From assembly GCF_003977615.1 (NCBI RefSeq), contig NZ_RYZR01000003.1:372001-436000 (forward strand): a DNA stretch of 64,000 bases. Direction: 5' to 3'. Position 1 is the stretch's first letter. Each line of letters opens with the position of its first letter. Both the position numbers and the translations under genes were made by a program. Of the stretch, positions 39,182 through 42,842 are shown piece by piece. The stretch is from Dyella dinghuensis. Lineage in GTDB: Bacteria > Pseudomonadota > Gammaproteobacteria > Xanthomonadales > Rhodanobacteraceae. A model generated the notes under the pieces. That model was not told the origin of the DNA and did no database searches. It saw only the letters and a program-made list of their open reading frames with translations.

Positions 39182-40858
39182 TCATGTCGCCGTTTCCAAC
39201 GCATGGCTGTGCACATCACGCACGGCGCGTCCGGACGGGTCGGCCATCTTCGCAAACGCCGGGTCCCAGGCCAGCGCAGCCGATGACGAGCAGGCAATCG
39301 ATTTGCCACCCGGCACCGTCGCTGCGCAGGCTTCTCCCGGGAAGTGCTTTTCGAAGATGCGGCGGTAGAGATACGCCTCTTTGGTCGCCGGCGTGTTGAA
39401 CGGATAACGCGCCGCGGCCGCGGCAAATTCGCGATCGCTGATCGCCTGTTCGGCATGTGCCTTCAATCCATCGATCCAGCCGTAGCCGACCCCGTCGCTG
39501 AATTGTTCTTTCTGCCGCCAGAGAATCGATTCGGGTAAGGCGCCATCGAAGGCTTCGCGCAATACGGCTTTTTCAATCCGCCCGTTGCCTGCCATCTTGT
39601 GTTTGGCATCCATGCCCATGGCGACTTCCATAAACTCGAGGTCCAGGAACGGCACGCGCGCTTCCACACCCCACGCCATCATCGACTTGTTGGCGCGCAG
39701 GCAATCGTAGCTGTGCAAGGCATCGAGCTTGCGGATGGTTTCCTCGTGAAACGCTTCGGCAGATGGCGCTTTGTGAAAATACAGATAGCCGCCGAAGATT
39801 TCGTCGGAGCCTTCGCCCGACAAGACCATCTTCACGCCCATTGCCTTGATCCGTCGCGCAAGCAGGTACATTGGCGTCGATGCGCGGATGGTGGTGACGT
39901 CGTAGGTTTCGATATGCCGGATCACTTCCGGCAGCGCGTCGAGGCCTTCCCAGAAGGTGTAGATGAAACCGTGATGCACGGTGCCCAAGGCATCGGCCAC
40001 CACTTTCGCCGCGGCCAGATCGGGCGAACCTTCCAGACCGATGGCGAAGGAATGTAACCGTGGCCACCATGCTTCGCTGCGATCGTCGTCTTCAACGCGT
40101 TCGCGTGCGAAACGCGATGCACATGCGGCAACCAGCGAGGAATCCAGACCACCCGACAGCAGCACGCCATACGGAACGTCCGTCATCAGTTGACGATGTA
40201 CGGCCTTCTCGAAAGCTTCGCGCAATTCACCTGGACCCGGCGATTGCCCTTTCGTTACGCCGTAGTCGCGCCACGGGCGGCTGTAGTAGCTACGCAAGCG
40301 GCCATCGGCGCTGTCGTAGACGTGTCCGGGCGGAAATGGCGCGACATCCGCACATACGCCAACGAGGGCCTTCATCTCCGATGCAACGCACAGACGACCG
40401 TGTGAATCGTGCCCCCAGTACAGCGGGCAAACGCCAATGGGATCGCGGGCAATCACATATCGCTGCGCGGCGCCATCCCACAGCGCGAAGGCAAAAATGC
40501 CGTTGAGCTTGCCGAGGAAATCGACTCCATGTTCCTTGTAAAGCGCATTGATGACTTCGCAATCCGAACCCGTGGTGAAGTCATAGCTGCTCTTTGCGCG
40601 CAGCTCGCGGTGGTTGTAGATCTCGCCGTTCACCGCCAGCGCAAGTTGCCCGTCACGCGAACGCAGCGGCTGCGCACCACTGGCCGGATCGACAATGGCA
40701 AGACGTTCGTGCACCAGGATCACCCCCGCGTCCACGAAGACACCGCTCCAGTCCGGTCCACGGTGCCGCTGACGTTGCGACAGTTCCAGTGCCTGCAGAC
40801 GTAACGCAGCCAGGTCATCGCCCGGCTGCAGATCGAACATTCCAAATATGGCGCACAT
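39182..40858 (-). CDS. asnB: asparagine synthetase B, glutamine-hydrolysing (558 aa)
   Basis: Makes asparagine from aspartate, ATP and glutamine. Cys2 of MCAIFGMFDL is the glutaminase nucleophile, with RGPDWSG, NGEIYNH and the synthetase P-loop GVLLSGGLDSSLVAACASR; EVRVPFLD-like AWGVEARVPFLDLEFMEV and GEGSDEIFGGYLYF are present. Length equals E. coli AsnB (554). ATG 40858 has AAGGGA eight bases upstream. The leader contains an asparagine-rich peptide gene and a terminator hairpin, so expression is probably controlled by attenuation. Confidence 0.97.
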   Translation of the reverse strand: MCAIFGMFDLQPGDDLAALRLQALELSQRQRHRGPDWSGVFVDAGVILVHERLAIVDPASGAQPLRSRDGQLALAVNGEIYNHRELRAKSSYDFTTGSDCEVINALYKEHGVDFLGKLNGIFAFALWDGAAQRYVIARDPIGVCPLYWGHDSHGRLCVASEMKALVGVCADVAPFPPGHVYDSADGRLRSYYSRPWRDYGVTKGQSPGPGELREAFEKAVHRQLMTDVPYGVLLSGGLDSSLVAACASRFARERVEDDDRSEAWWPRLHSFAIGLEGSPDLAAAKVVADALGTVHHGFIYTFWEGLDALPEVIRHIETYDVTTIRASTPMYLLARRIKAMGVKMVLSGEGSDEIFGGYLYFHKAPSAEAFHEETIRKLDALHSYDCLRANKSMMAWGVEARVPFLDLEFMEVAMGMDAKHKMAGNGRIEKAVLREAFDGALPESILWRQKEQFSDGVGYGWIDGLKAHAEQAISDREFAAAAARYPFNTPATKEAYLYRRIFEKHFPGEACAATVPGGKSIACSSSAALAWDPAFAKMADPSGRAVRDVHSHALETAT

Positions 40859-40893
40859 GTCAGATTCCCTTTGGCAGATCAAACGTGAAAAAC

Positions 40894-40922
40894 AAAAGGG
40901 CCCGCTTTTGGCGGGCCCTTTT
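40894..40922 (-). terminator. attenuator terminator upstream of asnB
   Basis: Minus strand AAAAGGGCCCGC-CAAAA-GCGGGCCCTTTT followed by GTTTTT: a 12-bp stem with T-run lying 36 bases before the asnB start. A competing pairing is possible: minus-strand GGTGGGCC at 40964-40957 (within leader codons 36-38) is complementary over 8 bp (one G-U) to GGCCCGCC at 40917-40910, i.e. the 5' arm of this terminator. This is the mutually exclusive pair required for attenuation. Confidence 0.85.
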
Positions 40923-40947
40923 GCGTGTGTATGTTTGTTGCTTTCGT

Positions 40948-41076
40948 CTACACGCCGGCCCACCCGTAGTGACAGGTATTATTATTGGCGTTGTTATTCA
41001 GACCGTTTGCAGCCACGACCACGCCGGCCAGAATGGCGGCGATGGCGATGGCGAAGCTGGCGACGGAAGCGTTCAT
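40948..41076 (-). CDS. asparagine-rich leader peptide of asnB (42 aa)
   Basis: Reading ATG 41076 to TAG 40948 gives a 42-codon peptide whose codons 24-33 read N-G-L-N-N-N-A-N-N-N, seven asparagines in ten codons; the N-terminal part is a hydrophobic Ala/Val/Ile stretch and the end is TCHYGWAGV. The stop lies 25 bases before the terminator. By the his/thr/leu operon precedent, ribosomes stalled at Asn codons would leave the antiterminator free and switch asnB on when Asn-tRNA is scarce. The binding site before ATG is weak (CCGAG). The hydrophobic segment is unusual for a leader peptide and might mean a small membrane peptide instead. Confidence 0.72.
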   Translation of the reverse strand: MNASVASFAIAIAAILAGVVVAANGLNNNANNNTCHYGWAGV

Positions 41077-41114
41077 GACTCGGACTTAATCACAAGCCGG
41101 TGCGGGGCGCAAGC

Positions 41115-41132
41115 TGTATCAACTTCGATACA
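41115..41132. promoter_or_regulatory. operator-like inverted repeat upstream of the asnB leader
   Basis: TGTATC-AACTTC-GATACA is a perfect 6-base inverted repeat 39 bases upstream of the leader ATG. It could be a regulator site for asnB; no known consensus matched. Confidence 0.4.
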
Positions 41133-41327
41133 TGCCCTTGTGACGCCAGACGCACCGGCCTATTTTCACACCCGCTTATCCTGAAAATTGTTCATATCCA
41201 ACGGGAACCTTAGCGTTCGACCGGCTAGCCATCAGGTCCATGGGGACAATCAAAGCTTTCGCAAAACCGACATAAGGCATCGTCTAGTGGCCCGCTAACC
41301 GGGCTGTCCGTTCTTGGGGAGCGAACG

Positions 41328-42842
41328 ATGAGACGGATGAAATGCTTGAGTGGTTTGCTGATGTTGACCGCGTTGTCGCCTGCTTATGCGCAGACCGGCA
41401 CGCAGACCCTGCAAAAGGAAGTCGATGACCTCAAGACGACGGTCAAGGAACTGCAGGCCGAGGTCAAGGAATTGAAGTCCGAGCGCGCCACGTCGGCGCA
41501 ACAGCCCGCGGTCACCGCTGCGCCAACGACAAGTGCTCCGACAACGCCGTCATCGGCACCTGCGCAACAAGTTGCAACTGCAACTACCGCTGTACCCAGC
41601 TTGCAAGTCAATGCGATCCAGATGGGCGATGGCGAAGCCTCACCGCTACCACCGCAACAGAGCGTTTCGGAGAATGCCGACTCCGCATCGCGCGTCGATA
41701 ACGAAGCGCCTCCGACTAATCCGGATTTGAAAGGCTTCATACAAATACCTGGCACACAGACGATTGTGCGTTTAGGCGGCTACGCCAAGCTGGACACTAT
41801 CTACGACACGGGCGCCATCGGCTACCCCGATGCGTTTGTGACCTCGACAATACCGATACCCCGGCCGCGCGACGACGCCGGCAATTTCACGATGCAAGCG
41901 CGCCAGACTCGCCTGAGCCTGGAAATACGACGACCCACGGTCTTCGACGACAGTCTGCGCTTCTATTTCGAAACCGATCTATTTGGCGGCGGGGCTGGCA
42001 ACTATGGGCTGCGTTTGCGTCAAGCGTATGGACAACTCGGCAACACCTATGCAGGTTTTGGCTGGTCGTCCTTTGCGGATTTGGACGCACTCCCCGACAC
42101 ACTGGATTTCGAAGGTCCACCCGGCGCCATCGCGCCACGTCAGGCCGGTATCCACCAGTTCATCCGCCTTGATGAAAGCAACAGCCTGACGATTGCCGCT
42201 GAGAATCCCACCTCGCAAGTCAGCGCTTATCAGCCCGTTACGCCTGACGTCATCGTCGACACTGTGCACGCGACGCAACATGTACCGGACATCATCGTCG
42301 CCCTGCGCACCGAGCATACATGGGGTCATTTGCAACTGGGTGGCGTACTGCGCCAGCTTGGCTACACCAACTACGAACAAAGCGACCGCATAGTGGCGGG
42401 CGGCGCGCAATTGAGCGGTTCGTTCAAGCTCGGTCCCTCCGATCCGTATAGCGATCTGCTGATGTTCGCCGCAGGCTGGGGCAAGGGCATCGCACGCTAC
42501 ATGGCCGACACCGACGGGCTTAACCTGGATGCATTGGTCGGCCCGGACGGCAAGCTGCACACACTCGACGACATCGGTGCGCACCTGGCTTATACGCACT
42601 ACTGGAGCAGCAACTGGCGCAGCAATCTGGTCTACGGCATTGCGCGCATCGAGCATTCGCCGTTGCTTTCCTACGATGCGTACCACGATGCCAACTACGG
42701 CGCGATCAACCTGCTTTGGACGCCAGCGCCTACGTTCACCGCAGGCATCGAGTTGTTGCACGGGCGGTTGATGGAACAGAACAATCGCTCCAACGATGAC
42801 ACGCGTATCCAAGGTTCGGTGCAATACAGCTTCATCAAATGA
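41328..42842 (+). CDS. DcaP-family outer-membrane porin (504 aa)
   Basis: A signal peptide (CLSGLLMLTALSPAYA), a coiled-coil periplasmic segment (LQKEVDDLKTTVKELQAEVKELK) that trimerises DcaP-like porins, an Ala/Pro/Thr-rich linker, and a 16-strand barrel-like domain with aromatic girdle residues ending in QYSFIK. The DcaP signature region is GFIQIPGTQTIVRLGGYAKLDTIYD. Relatives carry dicarboxylates, phthalate or other small acids. Its own promoter lies between 41133 and 41327. Confidence 0.87.
   Translation: MRRMKCLSGLLMLTALSPAYAQTGTQTLQKEVDDLKTTVKELQAEVKELKSERATSAQQPAVTAAPTTSAPTTPSSAPAQQVATATTAVPSLQVNAIQMGDGEASPLPPQQSVSENADSASRVDNEAPPTNPDLKGFIQIPGTQTIVRLGGYAKLDTIYDTGAIGYPDAFVTSTIPIPRPRDDAGNFTMQARQTRLSLEIRRPTVFDDSLRFYFETDLFGGGAGNYGLRLRQAYGQLGNTYAGFGWSSFADLDALPDTLDFEGPPGAIAPRQAGIHQFIRLDESNSLTIAAENPTSQVSAYQPVTPDVIVDTVHATQHVPDIIVALRTEHTWGHLQLGGVLRQLGYTNYEQSDRIVAGGAQLSGSFKLGPSDPYSDLLMFAAGWGKGIARYMADTDGLNLDALVGPDGKLHTLDDIGAHLAYTHYWSSNWRSNLVYGIARIEHSPLLSYDAYHDANYGAINLLWTPAPTFTAGIELLHGRLMEQNNRSNDDTRIQGSVQYSFIK

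Follow-up and report, generated by a model that had tools for sequence, protein, structure and literature searches.

An asparagine-rich leader peptide and alternative RNA pairings point to a ribosome-mediated attenuator in front of asnB in Dyella and its relatives

The window, a 64,000-nt stretch of the Dyella dinghuensis genome, carries asnB on its minus strand, preceded by a short frame rich in asparagine codons and by a hairpin next to T-rich sequence (Table 1). The open frame of asnB extends to 593 codons, which places its start too far upstream, and the gene start was set at 40858; asnB is the sole match in the genome. A divergent neighbour (41328-42842, plus strand) encodes a 504-aa frame that, as an impression from its sequence, resembles an outer-membrane porin. 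Elsewhere in the window, the short first frame of prfB (37680-37585, minus strand) ends with AGGGGGTATCTTTGAC, which we take to be the programmed +1 frameshift site of release factor 2. An initial annotation of this DNA had described a 42-codon frame with seven Asn codons in ten, a 12-bp terminator with a T-run before asnB, and an 8-bp pairing of the leader end with the terminator 5′ arm, and all three were found where it had placed them.

Table 1. Features of the asnB upstream region in the window, in the direction of transcription
Feature	Positions	Strand	Basis or remark
-35-like hexamer TTGCGC of leader promoter	41107..41112	minus	sequence; TTGC kept in relatives
Extended -10-like TG-A-TTAAGT	41084..41092	minus	17 nt after -35, 7 nt before leader ATG
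Leader peptide frame	40948..41076	minus	42 codons, Asn-rich; probably leaderless
Control codons 24-33, of which 7 are Asn	40978..41007	minus	sequence
1:2 hairpin TACCTGT-CACT-ACGGGTG	40961..40978	minus	fold; competes with segment 2
Segment 2, outer antiterminator arm GGTGGGCC	40957..40964	minus	folds; between-family comparison
Segment 2, inner antiterminator arm GCGTGT	40950..40955	minus	overlaps stop TAG (40950-40948); fold of 40975-40909
Segment 3, inner antiterminator arm ACACGC	40923..40928	minus	fold; alignment
Segment 3, outer antiterminator arm GGCCCGCC	40910..40917	minus	common to terminator 5′ arm
Terminator 5′ arm GCAAAAGGGCCCGC	40911..40924	minus	fold -26.9 kcal/mol; covariation
Terminator 3′ arm (segment 4) GCGGGCCCTTTTGT	40892..40905	minus	fold; covariation
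T-tract TTTTGTTTTT	40888..40897	minus	sequence
Shine-Dalgarno-like AAAGGGAA of asnB	40865..40872	minus	sequence
asnB, glutamine-hydrolysing asparagine synthetase B, 558 aa	39182..40858	minus	NF006949 864 bits (asparagine synthase B); PF00733

Asparagine occupies codons 24, 27-29 and 31-33 of the leader frame, the stop codon of which lies 23 nt from the hairpin. Across the six frames of the window, every 10-codon stretch with at least five Asn codons falls at this site, and first-order Markov copies of the window (n = 20) reached a maximum of 5 per 10 codons. Genome-wide, the pattern AAYAAYAAY-N(0-9)-AAYAAY occurs at four sites, of which the asnB leader is the only one in a short frame; the remaining sites, within open frames of 273, 330 and 593 codons, were ruled out as leaders. 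A search of the genome for His runs, used as a control for other leaders, gave no clear leader.

Upstream regions were collected from 60 relatives and 80 named genome contigs, giving 124 regions, 108 of them distinct, with one (L082) dropped because no start was found. A stretch with at least 4 Asn in 10 codons together with a terminator was present in 75 of the 108, or 74 after we removed by hand a spurious Gemmatimonadetes record (L105) that is leader-like by chance. The Asn codons are thus kept in 74 of 108 distinct regions, and their absence falls mainly at divergent asnB genes: 23 regions free of a leader belong to genes of 61-68% identity. Seven more regions have weaker or displaced forms, in that the tail is under threshold in three (L034, L096, L097), three carry 3 Asn (L107, L084, L085), and in L024 the leader lies 495 nt upstream behind inserted repeats; L071 is truncated by its contig end. 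Named carriers include Dyella, Rhodanobacter, Frateuria, Fulvimonas, Luteimonas, Lysobacter and Vulcaniibacterium, and a genome of the same genus encodes an AsnB 94% identical to that of the window. L084 and L085 have a Dokdonella-like asnB with the leader reduced to 3 Asn in 10 and the terminator intact, and their attenuator is possibly decaying or retuned. Two exceptions, in records titled Rhodococcus maanshanensis and Prescottella subtropica (L083, L086), are asnB genes for proteins 81% and 78% identical, without a leader, reflecting either transfer between phyla or misassigned contigs.

The 74 leaders carry a mean of 7.05 Asn, and both codons are in use (AAC 297, AAT 225), which indicates that the residue is kept and not the DNA. 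Residues 7-20 from the C-terminus are 43.8% Asn across 80 leaders, and the stop is TAG in 71 of 75. In relatives the frame is kept with its ATG and a stop upstream of the terminator, as predicted for a translatable frame. The leaders gave no support for a conserved hairpin near the start of the frame, which beat 95% of shuffles in 20 of 63.

The 12-bp terminator stem of the window (40922-40911/40905-40894) extends to 14 bp when folded alone (-26.9 kcal/mol, z -6.6), with T-rich sequence next to it. Among 78 leaders, 97.1% of cells in the helix are paired and 81 cells are double-changed, against 20.8 in shuffles; for the 56 Rhodanobacteraceae the values are 97.2% and 64 against 21.8. A consensus promoter and terminator scan of 40600-41400 reported neither element; both can be made out by hand: the T-tract overlaps the stem, and the -10 deviates from TATAAT. 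From the terminator stem to the asnB ATG there are 33 nt in the window, which leaves no room for a full promoter, so asnB is unlikely to have a promoter beyond the terminator there; the gap is under 60 nt in 47 of 74 leaders. In five Rhodanobacteraceae regions (L024, L062, L069, L073, L099), the attenuator is separated from asnB by ∼50-bp repeats (GGCCATGGATGGCCGGTATGCCGGAAACGCAGGAGC...), and several copies in L024 account for the displacement of its leader.

Folding the piece of the window that begins beyond the Asn run and ends at the terminator loop gave two nested helices, GGTGGGCC/GGCCCGCC outside (8 pairs, one of them G-U) and GCGTGT/ACACGC inside, at -22.8 kcal/mol, a value equalled by 2 of 200 shuffles. 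The second helix, predicted at the stop codon, is an addition to the model of the initial annotation. Since the two-state design and register shifts defeat RNAalifold, which recovered the terminator alone from alignment A1, we folded the leaders singly, leaving out L039, L105, L110, L114 and L123 by hand. In 79 of the 80 leaders folded, the leader end pairs over at least 5 bp with the terminator 5′ arm, and the mean energy of the antiterminator is -23.4 kcal/mol, compared with -16.7 kcal/mol after shuffling of the leader part. For 58 of the 80 leaders no more than 5 of 100 shuffles were as good, while the remaining 22 failed to beat at least 95 of 100. Two leaders, L003, where 85 of 100 shuffles were as good, and L088, which showed no pairing, had been cut at a late Asn by the folding rule.

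The same two helices persist in the alignments, where pairing reaches 91.3% (outer) and 69.9% (inner) in A1 and 98.0% and 80.6% in A2 (56 Rhodanobacteraceae); when both are slid, pairing falls from 90.5% to 29-58%. In A1 the covariation score was 0.110 vs 0.090 in shuffles (reached by 0 of 500), with double-changed pairs (48/500) and pair types (288/500) unexceptional against shuffles. Of the covariation that the initial annotation had looked to in this pairing, the part within Rhodanobacteraceae did not hold, as the score of the 56 leaders was reached by 187 of 500 shuffles and the sequence there is simply conserved. What did hold is that antiterminator and terminator are jointly rewritten in distant members. 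Between families, segments 2, 3 and 4 change together and segment 2 copies segment 4, as judged from 98 tabulated leaders in which the best helix was picked per leader without a shuffle comparison (30 loci dropped). The variants include GCGGGC/GCCCGC, GCGGGT/ACCCGC, GATGCGGGT/ACCCGCATC (L165-L168) and GCAGG/CCTGC, the last followed by GCAGG in L092 and L170 and occurring with GCGGG in L163. This joint change is the strongest argument for the predicted antiterminator.

A 1:2 hairpin, also an addition to the earlier description, would compete for segment 2. Among the 56 Rhodanobacteraceae it covaries (score 0.263 vs 0.117 in shuffles), though a slid control comes close to it in the share of cells paired (56.8 vs 61.3%). 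The hairpin beats 95% of shuffles in 42 of 74 leaders and is weak in many from Lysobacter and Luteimonas; that of the window, folded alone, does no better than shuffles (z -0.39).

The distribution of the leader was followed with a covariance model (R1) built from 78 leaders, which genomes giving training rows match by construction. At E <= 1e-7 it matched 128 of 299 genomes of the order, all in families f1 (65/76), f2 (60/78) and f3 (3/3), with 0/142 in other families. When 20 matches in f1 and f2 were opened, 19 preceded asnB and one (L173) was a plain terminator. From the genomes without a strong match, 28 were searched for asnB, leaving out the weak-scoring G253 and G264: 6 gave no match, 10 partial matches only and 12 a full-length gene. 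Full-length genes at 77-78% identity had an Asn leader in 5 of 6 cases and a reduced one in the sixth (L189), while those at 63-67% identity had one in 0 of 6; by these comparisons, the leader and one asnB clade go together. Twelve secondary matches among those listed (L176-L187, E 8.9e-7 to 7.6e-6) were considered as the same leader before other genes and rejected, since none has asnB and all lie at the ends of ordinary open frames as plain terminators. A class-wide search of 369 genomes gave nothing convincing outside the order: of nine matches at E <= 1e-5, four are G000, G037, G048 and G057, three (G519, G545, G577) are weak, and G548 and G616 were rejected as asnB leaders, there being no asnB at either.

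Upstream of the leader frame, a TTGC or TTGT box and a -10-like box precede an in-frame start in all 78 leaders, a count favoured by the procedure, which picked the start among in-frame ATG and GTG codons by fit and required TTGC or TTGT nearby. In 74 of the 78, 6 or 7 nt separate the -10 from the leader start; 68 have a spacer of 17 and 58 an extended TG. Under a strict promoter rule, 67 of 78 leaders pass vs 4 of 2112 ATGs of the window. A gap of 6-7 nt would place the RNA start at the ATG or within 1-2 nt of it, so the leader mRNA is probably leaderless, with a predicted start site, and this seems to correct the picture drawn in the initial annotation.

We consider it highly probable that these elements form a ribosome-mediated transcription attenuator of four segments, through which asnB expression follows tRNA-Asn charging, and the conserved Asn run, the terminator and the alternative pairing support the attenuator reading first proposed for this sequence. 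Transcription would start at the leader ATG or next to it. When Asn-tRNA is short, the leading ribosome would stall in the Asn run and cover segment 1, leaving segment 2 (the last leader codons and the stop) to pair with segment 3 in the two-helix antiterminator, and RNA polymerase would continue into asnB. When Asn-tRNA is plentiful, a ribosome at the stop codon would cover segment 2, segment 3 would pair with segment 4, and transcription would end at the T-tract. If the leader is not translated, the 1:2 hairpin would hold segment 2, making termination the default. A shortage of charged asparagine tRNA would thus very probably turn asnB on.

A leaderless start would make the terminated RNA a small leaderless mRNA of ∼190 nt, like rnTrpL as described in passages of PMC7298713. 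There is accordingly a slim chance that, besides the cis switch as proposed, the terminated leader RNA or the Asn-rich peptide acts in trans like rnTrpL/peTrpL, against which stands the variability of the peptide outside the Asn run (80 leaders). We give a similarly low probability to the combined reading in which the leader is leaderless clade-wide, with one promoter setting both RNA start and start codon, and the terminated mini-mRNA is also trans-acting as RNA or peptide. Less belief still attaches to a rival in which the frame codes for a small membrane or secreted protein that has a function of its own, the hairpin being no more than the terminator of this gene. The first half of the window peptide is hydrophobic, its hydropathy of 2.19 being the highest of 80 leaders, and the initial annotation had suggested from this a second role. 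However, the trait is peculiar to the window genome (median 0.52; above 1.0 in 14 of 80), so a second role of the peptide finds no support, and conservation lies in the Asn run, in how far it is from the stop, and in the pairing between the last codons and the terminator; the peptide had no NCBIfam match, and its single Pfam match, DUF1218 (E 0.036), fell below cut-off. Least probable of all is an attenuator independent of the leader peptide, as a terminator before a biosynthetic gene would fit a T-box, a riboswitch or a protein-bound RNA alike, but each leaves the Asn codons unexplained, and the region has no Rfam match at gathering, its best match at a lax threshold being Thr_leader (25.7 bits vs gathering 55), with Trp_leader below threshold (19 bits vs 41) and no T-box family match upstream of asnB at either threshold.

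The proposed ribosome-mediated attenuator fits the gene content of these genomes. AsnRS (asnS) was found in 26 of 26 genomes checked. Neither gatB nor asnA was found in the 16 genomes of the genus; among all 26, four have a gatB match and one an asnA match, the latter below cut-off. The window genome lacks both and has AsnRS and one asnB. With this gene content, Asn-tRNA should depend on free Asn made by AsnB, so sensing of charging should close the loop. Three genomes (G039, G042, G044) show the opposite of the genus genomes (G000-G015), with gatB over the cut-off and no full-length match to the window AsnB, and a trade-off between two routes to Asn-tRNA is possible.

The asnB leader resembles the trp, his, thr, leu, ilv and phe attenuators of Proteobacteria in its short frame with a cluster of codons specifying the product, its 1:2, 2:3 and 3:4 alternative pairings and its intrinsic terminator before a biosynthetic gene, and differs from them in having Asn codons and asnB as its gene. 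The two-helix antiterminator, with its inner helix at the stop codon, may be a further difference. Asn-specific T-boxes precede asparagine genes of Firmicutes, binding tRNA directly and needing no leader peptide. As in those T-boxes, the asnB leader would sense uncharged tRNA-Asn through a terminator and antiterminator, although it has no T-box match. A start geometry like the one predicted here is that of trpL of Sinorhizobium meliloti (rnTrpL/peTrpL), the leader frame of which starts at the transcript 5′ end and is thus leaderless, as stated in passages of PMC7298713. Here that trait is predicted, whereas there the start site was measured, the codons are Trp, the gene is trpE(G) and the host is an alphaproteobacterium. 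Leaderless leader peptides occur in Streptomyces lividans as well, where passages of PMC8079986 describe LeuL, TrpL, IlvL, MetL, ThrL and AlaL as RNA-seq-supported and several of them as leaderless; none there is for Asn, the words asparagine and asnB being absent from its main text.

The initial annotation knew of no Asn attenuator for asnB, and our search of the PMC literature likewise found none, though an earlier mention in the proteobacterial survey of Vitreschak 2004 is possible; the main text of a further attenuator survey (PMC2965389) contains neither asparagin- nor asnB. Our verdict, drawn from sequence comparison, is that the asnB leader is a predicted ribosome-mediated attenuator with a new amino acid and a new target gene. 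Asparagine and asnB would then join the amino acids and genes known under leader-peptide control, across environmental and plant-associated Gammaproteobacteria, and the leader would be a ready sensor of Asn-tRNA charging. The promoter geometry further suggests that, in these Gammaproteobacteria, a leaderless mRNA can carry classical attenuation.
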